Below are positions 16,886 through 41,969 of a DNA stretch of 64,000 bases, piece after piece. Origin of the DNA: Mesoterricola silvestris (GTDB taxonomy: Bacteria; Acidobacteriota; Holophagae; Holophagales; Holophagaceae); assembly GCF_030295405.1 (NCBI RefSeq), contig NZ_AP027080.1, forward strand, positions 1,488,001-1,552,000, read 5' to 3'. Position 1 is the first letter of the stretch. Every line of letters begins with the position of its first letter. A program made the translations under genes and the position numbers. The notes below the pieces were generated by a model. The model ran no database searches. It saw nothing but the letters and a program-made list of their open reading frames with translations, and was not told the DNA's origin.

Positions 16886-17066
16886 CGCCGGCGCCTTGGG
16901 CCTTCCGGCCGGTTCCGTCCCGCCCTGCCGGGGGCCGCGAGTTCATTCAGCCGGGTTCCATCCAGGGACCCGACCCACAGGGGCCCCGACGCCATCCGCC
17001 GACCCACCGGTAGCGCAATCGCAGCAGCAAGCTGCTGCGATCGCACTTGCCGTTGTCCATGGACGG
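16886..17066 (+). repeat. Family D element, copy 1
   Basis: Conserved blocks appear in order: CCCTGCCGGGGGCCGCG, GGGTTCCATCC, CGACCCACCGGTAGCGC, a hairpin at 17013-17046, then CTTGCCGTTGTCCATGGAC. The inner stem is ATCGCAGCAG / CTGCTGCGAT around the loop CAAG. Relative to the commonest copy one A-T pair has become T-A on both sides. The outer stem has two mismatches. This copy and the next are inverted over about 130 bp each and fill the gap between convergent genes. Confidence 0.8.
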
Positions 17067-17186
17067 CAGGAGGAAGAGGACATGGGGTGCGCTCCTTAGG
17101 CGCGCGGCGCAGAAATGATGTTTCGACATATATTCCGCGTATGGGGGCGCCTTTCGCGACCTCCCCGCCCCACCCCTCCGCCACCC

Positions 17187-17370
17187 ATCGTCCATGGATG
17201 ACGGCAAGCGCAAACGCAGCAGCTTGCTGCTGCGTTTGCGCTACCGTTGGGTCGGCGGATGGCGTCGGGACCCCTTTGGGTCGCGTCCTTGGATGGAACC
17301 CGGCTGAATGAACCCGCAGCCCCCGGCAGGGCAGGACGGAACCGGCCGGAATGCCCAAGGCGCCGGCGCC
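17187..17370 (-). repeat. Family D element, copy 2 (inverted)
   Basis: The reverse orientation of the copy at 16886-17066, with near identity outside the hairpin. The hairpin (17208-17241) has a perfect 15-bp stem, GCGCAAACGCAGCAG with its complement, around CTTG (CAAG on the other strand). It ends 11 bp before the acnB stop. The 120 bp between the copies contains an AT-rich patch (GACATATATTCCGCG near 17125) and no gene. Confidence 0.8.
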
Positions 17371-17381
17371 GTCCCAGGGGA

Positions 17382-22250: not shown

Positions 22251-22934
22251 ATGCGGCGTGCCTACAGGCCTGAAGAGAAGGAGCTCCGGCGCAAGGCCAT
22301 CCTTGCCGCCGCGGCCCAGCTCTTCAGCGCCTGCCGCTACCAGGACCTGCGCATGGCCGACCTGGCGCGGCTGCTGGGCATGGGCAAGGGCACCCTCTAC
22401 CTCTACTTCCCCACCAAGGAGGCCCTGTTCCTGGCGGTGCTCAAGGCGGAGATGGGCGGGTGGTTCCAGGGCGCGGCCCGGCGCCTGGAGGCCACGGCCC
22501 CCGGGGAGGACCCCGAGCGGGTCGCCGCGGGTCTCGTGCGCGAACTGCTGGACCGGCCCCTGCTGCCCGGCCTCCAGGCCCTGGTGCACGGCGTCCTGGA
22601 GCAGAACGTGCCCCGGGAGGAGACGCTGGCCTTCGCGCGGTTCCTGCAGGACGGCGTGACCCGCGTGGGGGCCTGCCTCGAGCGGGCCATCCCGGCCCTG
22701 GCGCCGGGCCGGGGCGCCCAGTTCCTCCTGCGCTTCTACGGCCTGGTCATCGGCTCCCAGCTCATGTCCGGGCGGCCCCCGTCCGTGGCCGAGGCCCTGG
22801 AGGAACCGGGCCTCCACGTGTTCGATTTCACCTTCGAAGGCGTCTTCACGGGCGCGGTGGTGGATCTCCTGAAGGGGATGCTGCAGGGGGAACTGGCGGC
22901 TTCGAACCAGGGAGGTACGACAGCGGCACCTTGA
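22251..22934 (+). CDS. TetR/AcrR-family transcriptional regulator
   Basis: A 227-residue regulator with the TetR helix-turn-helix (RKAILAAAAQLFSACRYQ, MADLARLLGMGKGTLYLYFP) in residues 14-60 and a helical ligand domain after it. The divergent FadL-type gene suggests that it responds to fatty acids or acyl-CoA (inference). Its last 30 codons overlap the convergent gene at 22846-23856 by 89 bp on the other strand. The final residues (LAASNQGGTTAAP) look like an unconserved tail, so an earlier natural end or later mutation of the stop is possible. Confidence 0.88.
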   Translation: MRRAYRPEEKELRRKAILAAAAQLFSACRYQDLRMADLARLLGMGKGTLYLYFPTKEALFLAVLKAEMGGWFQGAARRLEATAPGEDPERVAAGLVRELLDRPLLPGLQALVHGVLEQNVPREETLAFARFLQDGVTRVGACLERAIPALAPGRGAQFLLRFYGLVIGSQLMSGRPPSVAEALEEPGLHVFDFTFEGVFTGAVVDLLKGMLQGELAASNQGGTTAAP

Positions 22935-23856
22935 GCGGCGGCTCCTGCCCCTTGAAGCGCAGCACCAGGAGGGCCCGGGCCACGTCCGGGGCCGTGCGGC
23001 GGATTTCCAGGGCCATCTCCGGGGCCGCGGCCGGCAGGGGGCCCCGTTCGAAGCCGGCCCCCTCCACGTCGGCGCCCTCCAGGGCGAAGGCCTTGCCGTC
23101 CCGGGCCTTGAGCAGGAGCGTCTGGACGGGGACGGCGGGATCCAGGAAGACCACCCGGCTGGGCAGGGCCTCGATGGGGTGATGGAGCTTCCAGTCCAGG
23201 TACAGGTCGAACCGGGGCTGCAGCGGGGCGCTGGTCTCCACCCGGAGGGTCTCCAGGCCCAGGGCGGTGCCGGGGGGGATGAGCGCGGGGCGGAGCGTCA
23301 CCAGGAGCCGCGAGGACGGGGTGCCCGGCACCACCTCCGTCTCCAGGTACGGGGCCACGTCCCCGGTCAGGCGCAGCACGGTGGGCTGGCCCGTCTCCCG
23401 GGTGAACGTGAACACGGCCTGGGGGCTCTCGTGGGGCGCCACGACACCCAGGCTTTTGCGCTGCGCGTCCACCGTCAGGTCCGCCCGCACGTCCACGGCC
23501 ACGGGGAGCCGGTACTCCCCCTGGTGGGGATCGTCGGTGAGGAGCCGCACGTTGCGGGCCTGGGGCCCCACGAAATCCGCGGGATCCAGGGTCAGGGTGA
23601 GGCCGAGGCTCTGGCCCGGCGCGAAGGGCCCGTCCAGCGCCGGTCCGCGCACGGTGACGCCCGGGGAGAGTTCGCCCACGCGCAGGGCGATGGGCCTGTC
23701 GCTGATGTTGGTGAAGGTGTAGGCGACGGTCCGCACCTCGCGGGGCCCCGTGCTGCCCAGCTGCACGCGGCCCGCGGGCCGGATGTCGAGGCGGGCCGGA
23801 GCCTGGGCGAGGAGGTGCGCGGCGCAGGCGGCGATGGCTAGAAAGCGCATGGACAT
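22846..23856 (-). CDS. Exported protein with DUF1573-like domains
   Basis: A 336-residue exported protein: signal peptide MSMRFLAIAACAAHLLAQAP, then beta-rich domains. The first resembles DUF1573 (YTFTNISDRPIALRV, PFAPGQSLGLTLTLDP), an immunoglobulin-like fold often found in Bacteroidetes and Acidobacteria proteins of unknown role. A second, weaker copy follows near 120-220 (VFTFTRETGQPTVLRLTG). The Pro-rich C-terminus (PPVPPAASPSGDPPPRP) is read from the antisense of the TetR gene. The start at 23856 places the signal peptide at the N-terminus. Confidence 0.65.
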   Translation of the reverse strand: MSMRFLAIAACAAHLLAQAPARLDIRPAGRVQLGSTGPREVRTVAYTFTNISDRPIALRVGELSPGVTVRGPALDGPFAPGQSLGLTLTLDPADFVGPQARNVRLLTDDPHQGEYRLPVAVDVRADLTVDAQRKSLGVVAPHESPQAVFTFTRETGQPTVLRLTGDVAPYLETEVVPGTPSSRLLVTLRPALIPPGTALGLETLRVETSAPLQPRFDLYLDWKLHHPIEALPSRVVFLDPAVPVQTLLLKARDGKAFALEGADVEGAGFERGPLPAAAPEMALEIRRTAPDVARALLVLRFKGQEPPLKVPLSYLPGSKPPVPPAASPSGDPPPRP

Positions 23857-24145
23857 TGGGTTTCCCGGGAAAGGTAAGGGGTTGATGCATCGGGATCCGA
23901 GGCAGTATCCCACATCATGGCGGTGGTGCCCAGCGGTCTATCTCCAGCTTTTACAATTAAATACACACACGTCGTCTATTTCGATTTCACATTAATTAAC
24001 ACCACCCGCAAGGGCGTTGCAGGGATGATCCTTCCAGGTCACAACCCCATCGTCCAGTTCTCCATGCGCCGCAGGCCACCCATGCCTCCGGCCGCATTTC
24101 CAGTAGCTGCTGGAACCCTCCAACCCCACCGCACGGGAGCCCCGT
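23857..24145 (+). promoter_or_regulatory. Upstream region of the M4 protease gene
   Basis: An AT-rich patch at 23948-24000 has a possible -35 TTTACA (23950-23955) and -10 TCTATT (23975-23980) with a 19-bp spacer. A leader of about 160 nt would follow. The patch is also only about 95 bp upstream of the divergent DUF1573-like gene, so it may serve both. No other feature was seen in the 289 bp. Confidence 0.35.
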
Positions 24146-26383
24146 ATGGCCTTGAACCGTCGTACCTACACCCTCCTCACCCTCGCCCTGGCCGCCGCTC
24201 CGGCGTTCGCCCAGGTGAATGCCCTCAGCCACCTCACGAACCTGCGCAGCTCCCTGGGGCTGGACGGGCAGCACTCCTTCGCCCAGCGCAATGCCATCAG
24301 GGACGAAGCGGGCCGGACCCACGTGCGCTTCCAGCAGTTCTACCAGGGCGTGCCGGTGTTCGGCGGCATGGCCATCACCCACACGGACGCCACGGGATCC
24401 GAGCGCCCCATCACCGACCACCTGGTGCGCAACATCGCCCTCAACGTGCAGCCCAACCTCGCCCCCGCCGAGGCCGTGGCCGTGGCCCACGGGCACCTCG
24501 CCCCCACCGGCGCCTATGCCCAGGAGCCCACCGCCAAGCTGGTGGTGTACCCCGTGAAGGCCCTCGCCGCCAAGGCGGGCCGCTTCCAGGCCGCCAACGC
24601 GGAGGACTTCGAGGAGCAGGTGATCCGCCACGTCCTGGCCTACCACGTGCACACCTCCCTGCGCAACGAGGGTGAAACCCGCGACACCGACTACATCATC
24701 GACGCCCACACCGGGGCGATCCTGGACACCTGGGACGATCTGCACACCACCGCCGCCGTGGGCTCGGGCATCTCCCAGTTCAGCGGCACCGTGGCCCTGA
24801 ACACCAACCTGAACGGCAGCAATTACGAGCTCAAGGACACGGTCCGGAGCATGAACATCTCCACCTACAACCTCAACCACGGCACCAGCGGCACCGGCAC
24901 CCTCTACACGGACGCCGACGACGCCTGGGGCAACGGCACCAACTACACCGGCTCGACCACCTCCACCACCAGCGCCACGGGCCAGACCGCGGCGGTGGAC
25001 GCCCACTACGGCGTGGGGATCACCTTCGACTTCTACAAGAACCTCTTCGGCCGCAACGGCATCGACGGGGCCGGCAAGGCCACCTACAGCCGCGTGCACT
25101 ACAGCACGAGCTACGACAACGCCTTCTGGGACGACACGTGCTTCTGCATGACCTACGGCGACGGCAGCTCCTTCAAGAGCCTCGAGGCCCCCGACGTGGC
25201 CGGCCACGAGATGAGCCACGGCGTGTGCGCCTCCACGGCGAACCTCACCTACTCCGGCGAGTCCGGCGGCCTCAACGAGGCCAACTCCGACATGTTCGGC
25301 AACATGGTCGAGCTCTACGCCCGCAACGGCTTCACGATGCCCGCCACCGTGGCGAACACCGACGCGTGCTGGACCGTGGGCGAGCAGCTCTCCTCCACCC
25401 CCCTGCGCTACATGTACAAGCCCAGCCTGGACGGATCGAGCCCCAACGCCTGGTCCTCCACCGTGAAGAACCTCGACGTGCACTACAGCTCGGGCCCGGC
25501 CAACCGGATGTTCTTCTTCCTCAGCCAGGGCGCCAGCGCGACCAACACCAGCAACTACTACAGCTCCTACGCCCCCTCCGGCTTCAGCGGCATCGGTCCC
25601 GAGAAGGCCATCCGCATCTGGTACAAGGCGCTCACCACCTACATGACCTCCAGCACCAACTACGCCGCGGCCCGCACCGCCGCCCTCAGCGCGGCCTCGG
25701 ACCTCTACGGCGCCGCCGGCGCCGAGTATGCCGCCGTGCAGAACGCCTTCGGCGCCATCAACGTGGGCGCCCTGGCCTCCACGGGGGTGTCCGTGGTCCT
25801 GACCCCCTCCACCGCCACCCTGGCCCCCAACGCCACCCAGCAGTTCACCGCGGCCGTCAGCGGCAGCACCACCACCACCGTGACCTGGACCTGCACGGGC
25901 GGCACGGTCACCTCCGCCGGCCTCTACACCGCCCCCGCCACCGTGGGCACCTACACCGTCACCGCGACCTCCACCGCCGACACCAGCAAGTCCGCGAGCG
26001 CCACCGTGACCGTCACCACCGGTTCCACCACCTACGCCGAGGTGGAAAGCAACGGCACCATCGCCACCGCCAACGCCGTGGGCAACGCCGTCACGAAGAT
26101 CACCGGCTTCATCGGCACCACCACCGACGCCGACTACTTCAAGGTCCTCGTGGGCGCCGGCGCCACCCTCACCGTCAACATGACGGGCCCCGCCAAGGAC
26201 TACGACCTCTACCTGTACAACGCGTCGGGCACCAAGCTCGCCAGCAGCACCGGCACGACGTCCACCGAGTCCGTCACCTACAAGAACACCGGAACCGCCG
26301 GCGTCAACTACTACATCCTGGTGAAGGGCTACAACAAGGCCTACTCCACCACCGCCGGCTACACGCTCGCACTCACGCGATAG
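24146..26383 (+). CDS. Secreted M4-family (thermolysin-like) metalloprotease
   Basis: A 745-residue secreted protease. It has a signal peptide (MALNRRTYTLLTLALAAAPAFA), an FTP-like propeptide (about 25-200), then the catalytic domain with the zinc motif HEMSH at residues 354-358 and the downstream Glu in GGLNEANSD. The catalytic domain ends near 550. An immunoglobulin-like domain (about 551-630, VVLTPSTATLAPNATQQFTA) and a C-terminal PPC domain (about 631-745, ending TAGYTLALTR) follow; PPC domains are usually cut off during maturation. It probably degrades external protein for nutrition. A strong terminator lies just downstream. Confidence 0.93.
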   Translation: MALNRRTYTLLTLALAAAPAFAQVNALSHLTNLRSSLGLDGQHSFAQRNAIRDEAGRTHVRFQQFYQGVPVFGGMAITHTDATGSERPITDHLVRNIALNVQPNLAPAEAVAVAHGHLAPTGAYAQEPTAKLVVYPVKALAAKAGRFQAANAEDFEEQVIRHVLAYHVHTSLRNEGETRDTDYIIDAHTGAILDTWDDLHTTAAVGSGISQFSGTVALNTNLNGSNYELKDTVRSMNISTYNLNHGTSGTGTLYTDADDAWGNGTNYTGSTTSTTSATGQTAAVDAHYGVGITFDFYKNLFGRNGIDGAGKATYSRVHYSTSYDNAFWDDTCFCMTYGDGSSFKSLEAPDVAGHEMSHGVCASTANLTYSGESGGLNEANSDMFGNMVELYARNGFTMPATVANTDACWTVGEQLSSTPLRYMYKPSLDGSSPNAWSSTVKNLDVHYSSGPANRMFFFLSQGASATNTSNYYSSYAPSGFSGIGPEKAIRIWYKALTTYMTSSTNYAAARTAALSAASDLYGAAGAEYAAVQNAFGAINVGALASTGVSVVLTPSTATLAPNATQQFTAAVSGSTTTTVTWTCTGGTVTSAGLYTAPATVGTYTVTATSTADTSKSASATVTVTTGSTTYAEVESNGTIATANAVGNAVTKITGFIGTTTDADYFKVLVGAGATLTVNMTGPAKDYDLYLYNASGTKLASSTGTTSTESVTYKNTGTAGVNYYILVKGYNKAYSTTAGYTLALTR

Positions 26384-26395
26384 CCGTACGAGCCC

Positions 26396-26433
26396 GAAAG
26401 GAAAGGGCCGCCTCCGGGCGGCCCTTTCCTTTC
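26396..26433 (+). terminator. Strong terminator of the protease gene
   Basis: A perfect 17-bp stem (GAAAGGAAAGGGCCGCC, loop TCCG, and its complement) begins 12 bp after the protease stop. The 3' arm carries TTTCCTTTC in place of a pure T-run. The 3' part of this hairpin recurs at 29487 on the far side of the ADOP gene. Confidence 0.85.
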
Positions 26434-26750
26434 GGCCGCCCCGGCTTTCCGGCCCTGACCAGCCTGCCCTGCCGGCGGCCGCGGGTCGTGACGGCGGGGT
26501 TCCATCCGTACCTGGCGACCCATCCGGGTCCCAGCATTCTGCGCCGACCCATCGGTAGCGCAAACGCAGCAGCAAGCTGCTGCGTTTGCGCTTGCCGTTG
26601 TCCATTGGACGGAAGGGGATGGCGGAAGGGGGGTGCGCCCAAGGGGGAACGCTTGCCTGGCACGGCATGATTTGACGGGGGGCGGGGCTGCAGGCGCCAA
26701 GGTCGCCGCATGGCAGGTGTCCTGCCGGAACCCATGGCTTTCTCTTTACA
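26410..26750 (+). repeat. Family D element, copy 3 (long form)
   Basis: The core blocks are CCTGCCCTGCCGG, GGGGTTCCATCC, CCGACCCATCGGTAGCGC, a perfect 15-bp hairpin at 26558-26591 (GCGCAAACGCAGCAG, loop CAAG) and CTTGCCGTTGTCCATTGGAC. It continues through CTTGCCTGGCACGGCATG to GGAACCCATGGC at about 26740. That extension is found, inverted, in the copy at 29765-30066. The first 200 bp recur directly at 29487-29690. Confidence 0.85.
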
Positions 26751-26988
26751 TGCCGGAATTCCGAAGGAAGCCAATTTTTCTTCAAATGGGGGATCCCGGA
26801 TGGAATAGGGCCCTCACGTGAACGGTCCTGAAAATGGGACATGGAATCCCGATTCCGAAACTGGCGGTATGGGTCTTCCTTCAGATACATGGAGAATTCC
26901 GCCGGTATCATTCTTGCTGGAGGCAGGGGAACCCCGTTTCAAATCCTTCCCCGCCCCTGCCTCTGGAGCCCAGGTGCCCGTTCTTCGA
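26751..26988 (+). promoter_or_regulatory. ADOP gene upstream region
   Basis: Lower in GC than the rest of the window, continuing the composition of the permease gene. The frame of the permease is open from a GTG at 26818, so part of this region may be coding. GGAGGCAGGGG at about 26920 could be a ribosome site for a start further downstream, but no start matches it well. No repeat is visible here. Confidence 0.35.
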
Positions 26989-29382
26989 ATGACCCTTCGC
27001 GATGCATTCCGTGGGTTGAGCCGATCCCCGGCTTTTTCCCTGACCACCCTGTTGGTCATGGCACTTGGGCTGGGAACCAACATCATGTTCTTCAATGCCG
27101 TCCATGCGCTTCTGTGGCGGCCATTGGCGTTTCCCCAATCCGAAGGGGTCCTGTTCGTCCAACTTCAAGGTGATCGCGCGGCAGGCTTCAGTGCCACTGG
27201 ACGCGACGCCGCAGTCCTACACGATCACGTCCCTGACGTGGCGGAAATCGGACTGGTGAACACGACGGCCAACCTCGCTTTATCCCTTGGGGACCAGACC
27301 CTGGATTTGACCGCAGCCGAAGCCAGTTCAGGCTATTTCCGGCTTCTGAGGTTGCAGCCTCTGGTCGGCCAGTTCTTCGGCCCTGAAGAAGACCTCGACA
27401 ACCCCACCGAACAAAAGGCCGTGCTGACCGAATCCGCGTGGCGGTCTCGATTTCAGTCGGACCTGTCGGTGGTCGGCAGGACCTTCATGACCGAATCAGG
27501 TACCGAGCGTTACCCCGTCCGAATCCTTGGAGTAGTCCGAAGCGGGGTCACCCTGCCTTTCGCGGCCAATGCTGAAATTGTCACGGCGATTCCATGGATG
27601 GACACGAAGGTCCGGGCCCAGGGCTCCCACTTCTACAAGACTCTGGTCCGGTTACGCCCAGGGGTAAGCCGGGAGCAAGGATCAGCCGAGATTCAGACGG
27701 TGTTCAGGACCTTGGGCAACCTGGGGCCGGAGTTCCCCTTGGATCGGAACTTCCGGCTGGACCCGCTTCGCCAAGTTGTGATTCCGGCGCAGCCCGCGGT
27801 GTTGTTCCTCCTCTACGGGGCCGCGGGCCTATTGCTCCTGCTTACCGCTGCCAACGTCGCCAGCCTATTCCTCGCGCGGGCACTTAGCCGGGCCCATGAG
27901 ATGGCGGTTCGTCAAGCCCTGGGGGCCGAGCATCGGCATCTGTTCTTGACCTACTTTATGGACAGCTTCCTGGTCTGCGCGGGCGGTTTGGCCCTGGCCA
28001 TGGCCTTGAACTTCGTTGCTGGGCCGATCGTGCTTGCCCTGATGCCCGAATTAATCCGGGTGGGCTCGGAACTGCTTCGCCCCGGCTGGGCACTTTTGGG
28101 CTTCGGCACAGCGCTGTGCTTGGCCGTGTCCATCCTGTTGGCAGCCTTGGTGGCGTTCCAGCCTCAAAGGGTCGAATTGGCCAATTCCATGGGGGATGGC
28201 GGCCACGCCGCCACCGAAGGCCGACATCCCGTGAGGGCGGCACTCCTGCCAGCCCAGGTCGCGATCATTCTGGTCCTGTTGACTGTCGCCAGTTTGGTGA
28301 CCCGCAGTTGCATCCAGGCCCTGACCCTGGACCCAGGCTTCCGGTCCAAGGGGGCATATTGCTTTGAAGTGGTAATGCCGGATCCTGCCAATCGCTGGGC
28401 CCCCGCCGGTTTTGAGCTCCTAGGCCTCGCGGCCAACCTCCCGGGGACCAAAGCTGCCACCTTTTCCAAAGGTGAACCGGTAGGTCGTGGTTCCCGTTGG
28501 GTTAGCACCATTTGCAGCCACCCGGGCCCAGCCCTCCCGCAGGATCCACAGGCCCGCTTCATGGGCATTTCCACATCCTACTTCGAGACCTTGGGAACCC
28601 GGATTATGGACGGCCGGGGCTTCACCGAAGCTGAGGTCCGCGCGGATTCCCCGGTGGTCATCCTCAATTCCACCTTGGCCAAGCAGTTGTTTCAGAACCA
28701 GAACCCGCTCGGGCGGTCTGTGCGTATGGGAATGGGGAATCGTCAGGTCGAGGTCGTTGGCATTGTCCAGGATCTCCGCAGCCATGCTCTCGACCAATCG
28801 GCACTGCCGGAATTCTTCATTCCCTATTTCTCGAAATTTGGGGCCAGCATGACCGTCACCGTACGAACTGACCTGGCGCCTGGGGAATTCGAGCGGGCCT
28901 TCCGGTCCCGAATGGGTGTGTGGAACGGCGGAGCCCGGATGCGGAAGGTGAAACTCCTGGCCGACTTGTCTGTGGAAACCCTTGGCGAGCGATTTCGGGC
29001 CAGTGCTTTGATCGCCGGGGTCGCATTTCTAGGTTTGGTGATCGGTGCGACAGGCCTATACGGCACTCTGTCGACCCAGGTGACCCGGGGCCGCCGTGAA
29101 ATTGGGATGCGCATGGCCCTTGGGGCCAGAACCGGAGAGATCCTGGCGCTTGTGCTTGGACGCGGGGCACGCAGGGTCGGGATAGGAATGGCGTTGGGGC
29201 TACTGGGTTCGTCCGCAGTCGCTCACCTCCTAGCCAATCGTCTATATGGAATCGGCCCCATGGACCCCATCGCTTTTTCCTTCGCCGCACTGGTATTGGG
29301 CCTAGTCTGCTTTCTGGCGAGCCTGATCCCCGCGTTGAGGGCGGCTTCCGTCGACCCAGCCCAGGTGCTCAGGGGAAATTAG
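26989..29382 (+). CDS. ADOP-type (MacB-like) orphan ABC permease
   Basis: A 797-residue permease of the ADOP (acidobacterial duplicated orphan permease) type. It opens with MTLRDAFRGLSRSPAFSLTT and a first membrane segment, followed by a MacB-like periplasmic domain. Then come three membrane segments (AVLFLLYGAAGLLLLLTAAN onward), a second periplasmic domain, and three C-terminal segments (VAFLGLVIGATGLYGTL to LVCFLASLIPALRAASVDP). The two FtsX-like halves form an internal duplication. No ATPase gene is adjacent, which is normal for this family. Its codons use A and T in third positions far more than all neighbours. It sits between repeat copies, so it was probably acquired. A GTG at 26818 would add 57 residues without family similarity. 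Confidence 0.88.
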   Translation: MTLRDAFRGLSRSPAFSLTTLLVMALGLGTNIMFFNAVHALLWRPLAFPQSEGVLFVQLQGDRAAGFSATGRDAAVLHDHVPDVAEIGLVNTTANLALSLGDQTLDLTAAEASSGYFRLLRLQPLVGQFFGPEEDLDNPTEQKAVLTESAWRSRFQSDLSVVGRTFMTESGTERYPVRILGVVRSGVTLPFAANAEIVTAIPWMDTKVRAQGSHFYKTLVRLRPGVSREQGSAEIQTVFRTLGNLGPEFPLDRNFRLDPLRQVVIPAQPAVLFLLYGAAGLLLLLTAANVASLFLARALSRAHEMAVRQALGAEHRHLFLTYFMDSFLVCAGGLALAMALNFVAGPIVLALMPELIRVGSELLRPGWALLGFGTALCLAVSILLAALVAFQPQRVELANSMGDGGHAATEGRHPVRAALLPAQVAIILVLLTVASLVTRSCIQALTLDPGFRSKGAYCFEVVMPDPANRWAPAGFELLGLAANLPGTKAATFSKGEPVGRGSRWVSTICSHPGPALPQDPQARFMGISTSYFETLGTRIMDGRGFTEAEVRADSPVVILNSTLAKQLFQNQNPLGRSVRMGMGNRQVEVVGIVQDLRSHALDQSALPEFFIPYFSKFGASMTVTVRTDLAPGEFERAFRSRMGVWNGGARMRKVKLLADLSVETLGERFRASALIAGVAFLGLVIGATGLYGTLSTQVTRGRREIGMRMALGARTGEILALVLGRGARRVGIGMALGLLGSSAVAHLLANRLYGIGPMDPIAFSFAALVLGLVCFLASLIPALRAASVDPAQVLRGN

Positions 29383-29419
29383 GTTCCTTCAAAAACCTAG
29401 GTCATACAACCACCCACAT

Positions 29420-29454
29420 AAGGGACAGGGCGAATTGAACCCCTCCTGTCCCTT
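29420..29454 (+). terminator. Terminator-like hairpin after the ADOP gene
   Basis: A perfect 10-bp stem (AAGGGACAGG / CCTGTCCCTT) with a 15-nt loop lies 38 bp after the stop. There is no T-run, so its strength is uncertain. Confidence 0.55.
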
Positions 29455-29486
29455 CAACCCTGGGTTGGCTTAATGAACTGCATTAC

Positions 29487-29690
29487 GCCTCCGGGCGGCC
29501 CTTTCCTTTCGGACGCCCCTGCCTTCTGGCCCTGACCAGCCTGCCCTGCCGGCGGCCGCGGGTCGGGACGGTGGGGTTCCATCCGTACCTGGCGACGCAT
29601 CGGGGTCCCAGCAGCCTGCGCCGACCCATCGGTAGCGCAAACGCAGCAGCGAGCTGCTGCGTTTGCGCTTGCCGTGATCCATTGACGAAG
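29487..29690 (+). repeat. Family D element, copy 4 (direct repeat of copy 3)
   Basis: This matches 26410-26612 in the same direction, beginning inside the protease terminator hairpin (GCCTCCGGGCGGCCC). The hairpin at 29635-29668 has the standard stem and loop CGAG in place of CAAG. With copy 3 it brackets about 2.9 kb that contains the ADOP gene. The 74 bp to the next copy show no feature. Confidence 0.85.
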
Positions 29691-29764
29691 GGGAGAGAGG
29701 AGGCGTGGGTGCGGCGCATACGGTGCCGGGGCCGGGGGAACGATGCGAGGCCGCGATGGACGGT

Positions 29765-30066
29765 GATGTGCGGGATAAAGAACAAGGCCATGGGTTCTGG
29801 CAGGCCACCGGCCGCTCGGCAGACCTGACGGATGCAGCCTCGCCCCGAGTCAAACCATGCCGTTCCAGGCATGCGTTTCACCTGGGCCCCACCCCACTCC
29901 GCGATCCCCTTCCGTCCAATGGACAACGGCAAGCGCAAACGCAGCAGCTTGCTGCTGCGTTTGCGCTACCGATGGGTCGGCGCATAATGCCGGGACCCCG
30001 GTGGTGGGTCGCGAGCCGCGGATGGAACCCGGCCGCGACGTCCCGCGGCCCCCGGCAGGGCATGCC
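29765..30066 (-). repeat. Family D element, copy 5 (inverted long form)
   Basis: The reverse complement of the long copy at 26410-26750, including the extended part (CCATGGGTTCTGGCAGG on this strand). The hairpin at 29933-29966 is perfect. It lies in the convergent gap between the ADOP gene and the binding-protein gene, facing copy 4. The copies are too far diverged in their outer parts to be a recent duplication of one another. Confidence 0.8.
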
Positions 30067-30100
30067 TGGCCTGGCCACGCCGACGAACCCGCCGAATTCC

Positions 30101-31030
30101 CTACTGCGTCGCGACCCGCCGCAGGTTTCCGCGCACCAGGTCCGGGGGCAGCGGGACCATGCCGTTGAGGCGGACCTGGTTCTGGCCGTCTTGGGAGAGG
30201 ACGAACTCCATGAAGGCCGTGATCCTGGGGTTGAGGGCCTTGCCGGGGGCCTTGTTGAGGTAGATGTAGATGCCGCGTACGAAGGGGTAGGAGCCGTCGG
30301 CCACGGTCGCGGCGGTGGGCGCCACGGCGGCGCTCCCGCCCTGGGGGACGATGGGGAGGGGGCGGACGCCTTCGTAGATTTCGGAAAGATCGCCGTAGCC
30401 CATGGCGCCGGGTTCGGCCAGGACCATCCGGTAGACCTCCATGCCATCCACCCCGTGGCGGGTGTCGGCCTTGGGCTTCCCGTCCTTCAGGATGGTGTGG
30501 ATGAAGTCGTCCCGAAGGCCGGCCCCTTCCGGGCGGCCCACCCGGAGGATGGGCCTGGCCTTCCAGGCGCGGTCCGTGACCCCGAGATCGCCCCAGGTGG
30601 CGGCGTCCCCGGGCCACTTCAGGAGGCGGGTGGTGCTCCAGGCCGCGTCCAGCTGCTCCACCTTGACCTTCTGGATGGGATTCTGCTTGTGGACCATCAC
30701 CACCAGGGCGTTGAGGCCCACGGTGATGCGGGTGGGCGGGTAGCCCCACCGGGCGGTGAACGCACTCACCTCCTCGGGCTTGAGATCCCGGTTCATGCCG
30801 GCCAGTTGGGCCGTGCCGTCGATGAAATTGCGGGCGACCATGGCGGCCACCATGGGCTGGACGTTCATCTGGATTTCGGTGTCCCGCAGGCGGTAGGCGT
30901 CCCGCCAGAGCAGGAACGTGGATTCCATGTTCGTCGGGGTGGCCGCGAGAAGGGGGTCGCCTGGCGCCGGGGTGCGCGCGGACAGCAGGAAGCCCATGGA
31001 AAGGAGGGTGCAAAAGGCCAGGCATTTCAT
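30101..31030 (-). CDS. PstS-like substrate-binding protein, paralogue 1
   Basis: A 309-residue exported protein with signal peptide (MKCLAFCTLLSMGFLLSART) and the fold signature of the PBP-like phosphate-binding superfamily. Key segments are ALVVMVHKQNPIQKVKVEQL, DAAWSTTRLLKWPG and YPFVRGIYIYLNKAPGKALN. The canonical PstS TGSG/SGT phosphate site is not obvious; the equivalent segment reads GRPEGAGLRDDF. It diverges from a second copy with the same layout at 31173. No PstCAB transporter genes are near, so phosphate uptake by this protein is not supported by context. It may be a sensor or store (inference). Confidence 0.75.
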   Translation of the reverse strand: MKCLAFCTLLSMGFLLSARTPAPGDPLLAATPTNMESTFLLWRDAYRLRDTEIQMNVQPMVAAMVARNFIDGTAQLAGMNRDLKPEEVSAFTARWGYPPTRITVGLNALVVMVHKQNPIQKVKVEQLDAAWSTTRLLKWPGDAATWGDLGVTDRAWKARPILRVGRPEGAGLRDDFIHTILKDGKPKADTRHGVDGMEVYRMVLAEPGAMGYGDLSEIYEGVRPLPIVPQGGSAAVAPTAATVADGSYPFVRGIYIYLNKAPGKALNPRITAFMEFVLSQDGQNQVRLNGMVPLPPDLVRGNLRRVATQ

Positions 31031-31092
31031 GGGGTCCCCCGGGTGCAAAAGCGGTCCTGCTTCCGAAGCTGGTGCCAATTCGAAGAATAAGT

Positions 31093-31145
31093 TCAGAAAA
31101 CCAATGGATGATATCATCGCAATGTTTCACTCATTGGCTTTCTGA
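31093..31145. promoter_or_regulatory. Dyad between the two binding-protein genes
   Basis: TCAGAAAACCAATG (31093-31106) and CATTGGCTTTCTGA (31132-31145) form an inverted repeat with one mismatch in 14. A perfect palindrome, GATGATATCATC, lies between them at 31107-31118. The gap is only 142 bp and serves two divergent paralogues, so this is a strong candidate for a shared operator. Confidence 0.55.
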
Positions 31146-31172
31146 CAACGTGGAATTCACAAGGAGGCCCTC

Positions 31173-32117
31173 ATGCGATTCCCGCGTGGCCTGAACTCCC
31201 TGCTGCTCGCCAGCGCCCTGGTTTCCGCCCTGCCCGCCCAAGCCCAGGCCCCCCGGGCGGGTAACGCCATCGTGGTGGCGGAAATGGTTGAACCACTTAT
31301 GGCCAAGTGGAAGGACGCCTACCGGTCCAAGCATCCGGGGTGGGACCTCTCCTACGCCTCCACCCTCCAGGATTCCGTCTTCAAGGCCTTCCTCGCCGGC
31401 CAGTCCCTGCTGGCGCCCAGCGCCCGGGACTTCACCCGGGAGGAGATCGCCGCCTTCACGGCCAAGTGGGGCTATGCGCCGACCCGGGTGGCCATCTGCA
31501 TGGACGGCCTCGTGGTCCTGGTGCACAAGAGCAACCCCCTGAAGGAAATCAAGATCGAGCAGCTGGACGCCATCTATTCCACCACCCGGCTCCAGGGCTG
31601 GCCCAAGGATATCCAGGTCTGGGGGGATCTGGGCCTGACCACCGGCAACTGGGCGACCCGCCCCATCGAAGTCCTGGGCCATCCCGTGGGCTCGGGCACC
31701 CGCATGTTCTACCTGAGCGCGGTGCAGAAGAACGGCACCAGCAAGCCCACGATCCAGCGTGGCGCCGATATCCTCGAAATGGTGGAGAACCTCACCGCCA
31801 ACCAGGCCGCCATCGGGTACGGCTCCATGAGCCAGAACTATTCCTCCCTGCGCACCGTCCCCGTGGTGCCAGCGGGCGGAAAGACGGCAATTGAAGCCAA
31901 CCCCGCCAATATCGTGGAGGGGGCCTACCCCCTCGGGCGCATCCTCTACACCTATGTGAACCAGGCCCCCGGCAAGCCCCTCAACGCCAACCTGCTGAAC
32001 TTCCTCCGGTACATCCTTTCCAAGGACGGGCAGTCCCAGGTCACCTCGGCCGGCTTCGTTCCCCTGGCCGAGGACATCGCGGGCATCAATCTCCGCCGCC
32101 TGGAAGCAGCCCGTTAG
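31173..32117 (+). CDS. PstS-like substrate-binding protein, paralogue 2
   Basis: A 314-residue exported protein (signal about 1-25, PAQAQAP) with the same segment order as the divergent gene: CMDGLVVLVHKSNPLKEIKI, DAIYSTTRLQGWPKDIQVW and YPLGRILYTYVNQAPGKPLN. Here the binding-loop segment reads GHPVGSGTRMFY, which does contain a GSGT motif typical of PstS. AAGGAGG lies six bases ahead of the ATG. Its last 32 bp overlap the 3' end of the convergent methyltransferase gene. Confidence 0.8.
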   Translation: MRFPRGLNSLLLASALVSALPAQAQAPRAGNAIVVAEMVEPLMAKWKDAYRSKHPGWDLSYASTLQDSVFKAFLAGQSLLAPSARDFTREEIAAFTAKWGYAPTRVAICMDGLVVLVHKSNPLKEIKIEQLDAIYSTTRLQGWPKDIQVWGDLGLTTGNWATRPIEVLGHPVGSGTRMFYLSAVQKNGTSKPTIQRGADILEMVENLTANQAAIGYGSMSQNYSSLRTVPVVPAGGKTAIEANPANIVEGAYPLGRILYTYVNQAPGKPLNANLLNFLRYILSKDGQSQVTSAGFVPLAEDIAGINLRRLEAAR

Positions 32118-32946
32118 CCCGGCCCCGCTCCAGGGCTAGGATCACCCGCTTGCGGGCGGCGCCCCAGTGGTAGCCGCCCAGGGCCCCGGAAGCCTGGATG
32201 ATCCGGTGGCAGGGGATGAGGAGGGCGATGGGGTTCCGCCCCACCGCGGCTCCCACGGCCCGGGCCGCGCCGGGGTCGCCCAGGGTCCGGGCCAGGTCCC
32301 CGTAGGAGAGCACCCGGCCCTCGGGGATGGCCAGGAGGGCCTCCCAGACCTTCAGCTGGAAGGGGGATCCCTGCAGCAGCAGGGAGAGGGGCTTCGGGGG
32401 CTCCCCCCGGAACCGTGATTCCAGGGCTTCGGCCAGGGGGGCCAGGCCGGCGGGGTCGTGGGGGAAGTCCGCCCGGGGCCACCGGCCCCGGAGCTCCGCC
32501 AGGGCCTTGGCCGGGTCCCCGTCCTCCAGGAAGGCCAGGCCGCAGAGCCGGCCGTCCAGGGCCGCCAGGAGGGCCTCCCCGAAGGGGGTCGCCACCACCG
32601 TCCATCCCACCCGGAGGCCCCGGCCCTGCTCCTTGAACTGTCCCGGGGTCATGCACTCCAGGGACAGGAAGAGATCGTGGAGCCGGCTGGGACTGGAGAG
32701 GCCCACCGCGAGGCTGGCGTCCAGCATGGACCGGGAGTCCATGAGGAGCCCCTTGGCCTCCCCCAGGGTCAGGTACTGAAGGAACCGCTTGGGGCTGATG
32801 CCCGCCCACCGGCGGAACATGCGCTGGAAATGGAATTCGCTCACCCCCGCCTGGGCCGCCACCTCCGCCAGGGCCGGCTGTTCCCTCACGCTGTCGCAGA
32901 GGAAGCGGATGGCCTTGGCGCAACGGGTGAAATCGCTCTGGGACAT
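32086..32946 (-). CDS. AraC-type regulator fused to O6-alkylguanine-DNA alkyltransferase
   Basis: A 286-residue hybrid like the C-terminal two-thirds of Ada. Residues 1-100 are an AraC-type DNA-binding domain (LAEVAAQAGVSEFHFQRMFR, GISPKRFLQYLTLGEAK). From about 110 comes the alkyltransferase with the acceptor cysteine in LIPCHRIIQ and the preceding RAVGAAVGRNP helix. The Zn-binding methylphosphotriester domain of Ada is missing, so the usual Ada switch cannot operate; such AraC-Ogt proteins are known in other bacteria. The 3' end overlaps the convergent gene by 32 bp. Confidence 0.9.
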   Translation of the reverse strand: MSQSDFTRCAKAIRFLCDSVREQPALAEVAAQAGVSEFHFQRMFRRWAGISPKRFLQYLTLGEAKGLLMDSRSMLDASLAVGLSSPSRLHDLFLSLECMTPGQFKEQGRGLRVGWTVVATPFGEALLAALDGRLCGLAFLEDGDPAKALAELRGRWPRADFPHDPAGLAPLAEALESRFRGEPPKPLSLLLQGSPFQLKVWEALLAIPEGRVLSYGDLARTLGDPGAARAVGAAVGRNPIALLIPCHRIIQASGALGGYHWGAARKRVILALERGRANGLLPGGGD

Positions 32947-41687: not shown

Positions 41688-41830
41688 GGCGAGCCTGCCC
41701 TGCCGGGGGGCTGCTGGGCCAGCCGCGAGGTTCCGGGGGGAAGGGCCGGCCCATGGGGTCCCGGAGCGGCGCCCCGACCCACCGGTAGCGCCACCAGCAA
41801 GCTGCTGCTGGCGCTTGCCGTCATCCATTG
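41688..41830 (+). repeat. Family D element, copy 6 (diverged)
   Basis: The blocks GCCTGCCCTGCCGGGG, CGAGGTTCC, GGGGTCCC, CGACCCACCGGTAGCGCC and CTTGCCGTCATCCATTGAC are kept. The hairpin (41788-41814) has another stem: GCGCCA and CAGCA pair with TGCTG and TGGCGC across one C-C mismatch, with AAG at the tip. The region to 41969 also has CAGCGCCCCAGCG twice (41892-41925) and T-rich tracts, but no gene. Confidence 0.7.
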
Positions 41831-41969
41831 ACTAGGGGGACGGTGGAGGTGGAGCGAAAAGCTGGCCACCCCAGTTTTTCCTGCTTTTCCCAGCGCCCCA
41901 GCGAGCCCTCAGCGCCCCAGCGTTTTTCTTTTTCCCCGGTCATCCACGGCCCTCGTGTCCGGGCCGAAA

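Follow-up and report, generated by a model that had tools for sequence, protein, structure and literature searches.

Three groups of bacterial repeats and one class of membrane proteins provide the closest comparisons for the locus described here. REP sequences form head-to-head dimers, that is, inverted pairs located near 3' ends and between convergent genes (PMC3733652). The GTAG-type REP dimers and REPINs (PMC3733652, PMC3116915) resemble the elements of Mesoterricola silvestris in several respects: they are inverted pairs, which in the main subfamily mostly bear GTAG on the outside and a hairpin beside the tag, they occur in many copies within few genera as singletons, dimers and trimers, and they are intergenic, close to the 3' ends of genes and enriched between convergent genes. 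The differences concern size, enzyme and tag. A REP or REPIN unit measures 20-40 bp, whereas the Mesoterricola arm has ~150 nt and the whole element is a near-palindrome of ~490-640 bp; REPs and REPINs have a cognate Y1/RAYT gene, whereas no such gene was found in the M. silvestris genome; and the GTAG tag is lacking in a second subfamily and in the copies of a congener (G003). MITEs and terminator-like repeats such as SPRITE (PMC10969869) are likewise short non-coding inverted-repeat elements whose presence or absence varies between species. Like MITEs, the elements have inverted repeats at their ends and sites that are empty in relatives; a target-site duplication is not clear, and within the elements no parent transposase was found. 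In Escherichia coli, long palindromes give rise to rearrangements controlled by SbcCD and RecA (PMC3315005) and are, as we propose for the present locus, sites of breakage and inverted duplication; the E. coli case concerns an engineered palindrome of 246 bp, whereas here the repeat is natural, foreign DNA lies at its centre, and the mechanism is inferred. ADOP permeases (TIGR03434), finally, share with the gene at this locus MacB_PCD and FtsX domains along the full length.

The window, the whole stretch of DNA that was analysed, comprises 64 kb of the M. silvestris chromosome. The locus consists of three repeat arms, termed A, B and C, and a permease gene, in the order A, permease, B, C, between two convergent genes:

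24146..26383, + strand: gene for an M4-family metalloprotease, left convergent neighbour (Pfam Peptidase_M4/M4_C; orthologues with 90% in G004 and 88% in G005)
26392..26433, + strand: terminator-like hairpin 3' of the protease, missing in G004 and G005 (sequence, fold, relatives)
26434..26752, + strand: A, left arm of the palindrome (core 26459-26613, with the inner hairpin at 26557-26592; covariance model 149.5 bits)
26753..29485, no strand assigned: foreign insert that carries the permease gene as well as a hairpin of its own (29424-29454); GC 0.605; matched neither by arms nor by relatives
26989..29382, + strand: ADOP-like permease, 797 aa, MacB_PCD and FtsX domains (TIGR03434, Pfam)
29486..29511, + strand: repeats the 3' portion of the hairpin behind the protease gene and forms the left boundary of the duplication (25/25 against 26409-26433)
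29512..29775, + strand: B, second left half, without most of A's inner part (core 29536-29690; covariance model 148.5 bits)
29776..30095, - strand: C, right half (core 29911-30068; covariance model 143.9 bits)
30101..31117, - strand: PstS-like substrate-binding protein 1, right convergent neighbour (TIGR02136, PF12849)
31173..32117, + strand: PstS-like substrate-binding protein 2 (TIGR02136, PF12849)

The two pstS genes (30101-32117) are divergently transcribed, encode proteins that are ~40% identical, and are missing at this position in G004 and G005.

A comparison of the region with itself (blastn) confirms the direct repeat that a preliminary description had placed around the permease: 26409-26637 matches 29486-29713 in the same direction with 90.9% identity over 230 columns (E 9e-87). 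As also described there, the right copy begins within the hairpin of the protease and repeats only its 3' part. The hairpin is perfect and lies 3' of the protease stop codon; its 3' part, 26409-26433, constitutes the first 25 bases of the repeat, is identical in the right copy (25/25), which sets in 3 bp short of the loop. The hairpin, designated there as the protease terminator, is itself missing in G004 and G005. An in silico junction of 26409 with 29487 gives the hairpin back (fold energy -41.0 vs -42.0 kcal/mol) and also yields one complete two-arm element B-C; the right copy alone has no hairpin. The claim that removal of the segment restores one terminator and one element is thus correct as a computation, but a permease-free state of this form was seen in no genome searched. 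It is possible that recombination between A and B would lose the segment again.

What the preliminary description missed is an inverted third copy at 29776-30065 and more than 80 further arms elsewhere in the genome. Copy A alone has ~60 blastn matches in its own genome. Arms were sought with profiles in iterated rounds and with a covariance model based on 44 arms; among 26 genomes, the model recovers 84 arms at ~47 loci in M. silvestris (G000), and 14, 18 and 7 arms in the congeners G005, G003 and G002, respectively, with none in G001, G004 and the 20 genomes outside the genus. The majority of loci consist of an inverted (+/-) pair whose arms are ~50-250 bp apart. The conserved arm combines a GC-rich, hairpin-like outer stretch with an inner hairpin, whose stem varies from locus to locus yet remains self-complementary (29 different hairpins in 44 arms). 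These stem changes could reflect selection on structure, or a correction of the palindrome in which one arm is copied from the other. A hairpin tag is present in 40 of the 44 aligned arms of the main subfamily (GTAG in 36, GGAG in 4), and the second subfamily is also distinguished by a different inner hairpin. Using a codon-based gene caller, 30 of the 47 loci lie between convergent genes, an arrangement shown by 17% of adjacent gene pairs (p 2e-12). A gene points into 59 of the 76 outer arms, with a median of 33 bp between its stop codon and the arm. None of the 47 other loci encloses a predicted gene. Two further copies are located in the window itself:

16888..17378, arms 16915-17068 + and 17186-17339 -: ordinary two-arm copy (1505k; covariance model, relatives), palindromic through its centre with 81% over 487 bp
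41690-41836, + strand: solo arm (1529k), with 318 bp around the arm missing at the G004 counterpart

We saw no transposase within the elements, and genes of the Y1_Tnp type (RAYT, PF01797) number zero in G000, G001, G002 and G005, with matches in G003 and G004. G004 has four near-identical Y1 transposase genes and no copy of the element, G000 the reverse. As Y1_Tnp genes occur in the element-free G004, the presence of RAYT and the presence of the element do not track each other, and RAYT was rejected as the driver. A scan of 26000-30300 against Rfam returned nothing at E up to 1, and a literature search on Holophaga repeats and on this palindromic family found nothing specific. The family is REP-like, and new in its size and in the absence of a resident RAYT. 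We note that in G003 near-identical copies are found at contig ends (L151, L159, L163, L167, L170, L174, L202-L210 and L212), each directly 3' of a perfect hairpin and TGCAG. Since the same few hairpins occur at different loci of G003, the hairpin may belong to the element.

The locus has an empty counterpart in relatives. The flanking DNA of G004 and G005 is 88.5% and 86.6% identical to that of G000, respectively, and in both genomes the stop codon of the protease lies ~16-20 bp from the stop codon of an Ada-like gene. Missing are 5.75 kb (26380-32128) with the hairpin, A, the permease, B, C and both pstS genes. The permease is absent from the locus in both closest relatives; the empty site predicted by the preliminary description exists, but it spans 26380-32128 rather than 26410-29486. 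G003 has neither the region nor the protease, and tetR adjoins the Ada-like gene. Given that the protease is absent in G003 and the 5.75 kb are absent in G004 and G005, the position grew stepwise, with the permease in the youngest layer. The part missing in G003 (22846-26383) also includes a DUF1573-like gene, genes having been gained repeatedly at this position.

Seven positions of the family were mapped in G004 by both flanks (the window locus, 1505k, 1529k, 2508k, 2624k, 2664k and 478k); each of them is either empty or occupied by no more than a short, unrelated sequence. For example, at 1505k exactly the 491 bp between two convergent stop codons are missing, such that the genes are ~13 bp apart without an element, and at 2624k the site is located just 3' of a terminator that G004 retains. 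A candidate target duplication, CGAAA, was observed at 1529k only; at 1505k none is clear. Two element sites are common to G000 and G005, so that some copies are older and were lost from G004. Together with the empty sites in G004, this indicates that copies come and go.

Sequence comparison of the three arms reveals how the locus deviates from the ordinary layout. C (29776-30065) matches A (26462-26748) in inverted orientation with 84.6% over 292 columns (blastn, E 3e-86), and the inverted match between B and C amounts to 82.8% over 169 columns. On its outer side, to the left of the inner hairpin, A agrees with B (25/25, 21/25 and 59/61), and on its inner side, to the right of that hairpin, with the reverse complement of C (42/47, 48/60 and 34/52); A therefore ends near the centre of a palindrome. 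The half hairpin of ~25 bp lies outside the element, is common to A and B, and was not found before other copies of the family. As it is specific to this locus, A and B are products of one local duplication. An ordinary element is a palindrome that lies between convergent genes; by this standard A and C form the regular pair, with the permease and B interrupting its centre. We also considered A as a loop-inverted copy of B-C; this was rejected, as elements like 1505k are palindromic through the centre, so that a single palindrome formed by A and C is the simpler account.

An extra arm inside one element is found at two other loci, 2664k (+,+,-) and 1905k (+,-,-), where neighbouring arms are inverted as well, and the copying of extra arms therefore recurs without cargo. 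A third three-arm locus, 1166k, consists of two different subfamilies side by side. Widely spaced +/- arms at 3095977/3100930 were examined as a second case of cargo and rejected: they flank several ORFs whose GC content is ordinary, and resemble solo arms that are not related to each other. Sequence divergence is 9% between A and B and 20-35% between the inner parts of A and C, which makes the event old, with the microhomology of the junctions eroded. A and B could have been homogenised by gene conversion.

The enclosed segment differs from its surroundings in composition, as had been noticed before. The GC content of 26753-29485 compares to 0.69 for the 64-kb window, and the permease has a GC3 of 0.711 and a codon-adaptation-like score of 0.27, against 0.886-0.977 and 0.58-0.83, respectively, for eleven neighbours. 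Five resident ADOP paralogues elsewhere in the genome are ordinary in GC3 (0.89-0.95), hence the oddity is a property of this gene and not of the ADOP family. The protein comprises two MacB_PCD and two FtsX stretches over ~800 aa (Pfam) and covers positions 5-801 of 803 of TIGR03434. Its score of 558.5 bits remains below the curated cut-off of 622.3. Across 396 genomes of the phylum no full-length homologue exceeds 34% identity, the best relatives lying at 30-34%. A donor search against genome contigs gave one match with 22%, and there is no second copy above ~33% in the own genome. Short C-terminal pieces with 50-60% identity occur in G011 and G004; the G004 fragment (L073:5033-5212) matches the 61 C-terminal residues of the permease with 58-61% identity, and the remaining gene was not found. 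Low GC3 by itself is no proof of transfer. The permease was probably acquired.

The reading of the preliminary description, acquisition of the gene together with duplication of a flanking element, is thereby partly supported. The foreign composition, the common origin of A and B and the absence of the permease from the locus in the two closest relatives agree with it; the repeat, however, is more than a flanking element. It represents the left half of a member of a palindromic family confined to the genus, and the right half lies at 29776-30095. We consider it probable, with some reservation, that foreign permease DNA was joined at the centre of the palindrome and that a second copy of the left block was made beside C. 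The ordinary state would have been protease, A, C and pstS1, with a long palindrome between two convergent genes. A foreign stretch of 2.7 kb with an ADOP-type permease would then have joined the chromosome at the palindrome centre, and a second copy of everything from the protease hairpin loop through the left arm would have been made beside C. Duplication and capture may both have been caused by a break or a replication stall at the palindrome and the hairpin, if repair synthesis or a switch of template resumed copying at the hairpin loop on the sister strand pair. The duplicated block is bounded by the palindrome centre at one end and by the hairpin loop at the other. One pass would give the order hairpin-A-permease-half hairpin-B-C, with the inner arm of B partly lost later; two separate steps would be equally compatible. 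Several points count against capture at the centre: no searched genome has the element without the permease, the relatives lack all 5.75 kb at once and so do not show the order of events, and no searched homologue of the permease exceeds 34% and would point to a donor or to the exact ends of the insert. The divergence of the arms, possible gene conversion between A and B and the limited weight of a low GC3, all given above, also belong here.

Among the other explanations, the one closest to the preliminary description gives the palindrome no role. The gene would have come with a simple duplication of the flanking element, for example by a single crossover with a circle that carried a homologous stretch, and the direct repeats could excise it. 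The 230-bp direct repeats with their common locus-specific flank are as expected, and so is the computed excision product with hairpin and complete element B-C. The circle, however, must have carried half a hairpin in addition to an arm, the empty site of the relatives is larger, and a single crossover does not predict that the inner part of A is unlike B and like the reverse complement of C. We regard this course as unlikely. Distinctly less probable is that the 5.75 kb are ancestral and were deleted in G004 and G005, without any recent acquisition. Absence in relatives alone does not separate gain from loss, and some elements common to G000 and G005 must indeed have gone from G004. On the other hand, the more distant G003 is also without the region, and even without the protease, the codon usage of the permease is foreign compared to that of residents, and independent deletions in two species, each ending only a few bases from the two stop codons, are the less simple course.

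The inverted orientation of A and C with the permease between them, and the variable presence of elements between species, might also suggest terminal inverted repeats that move the permease as transposon-like cargo. Such a unit leaves the position of B inside it unexplained; moreover, the segment contains no transposase, the 47 other loci are without enclosed genes, and the permease has no second genomic copy above the level given, which together make cargo transposition very unlikely. It is scarcely credible that a common repeat inserted twice, independently, once on each side of a resident gene, to give A and B. Although dozens of repeat copies exist, often at gene ends, the identical 25-bp half hairpin that A and B share outside the element effectively refutes this explanation, and their outer arms are identical at 59 of 61 positions as compared to 70-80% for other copies.

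The preferred reading, joining at the palindrome centre, allows for a wider and rather doubtful extension. REP-like palindromes may act as breakage points between convergent genes, whose centres copy extra arms and capture foreign genes; the permease would then be an example caught in the genome, and 2664k and 1905k would represent the same reaction without cargo. Long palindromes have mostly been studied as engineered sites in laboratory strains. A natural family of such near-palindromes, each of about half a kilobase and with sites that are empty in sister species, would allow a direct inquiry into their spread in a genome that has no recognisable REP transposase, and into how often palindrome centres take in foreign DNA. 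The locus also shows that what looks like a gene flanked by direct repeats can turn out to be a single, broken copy of a three-arm repeat.
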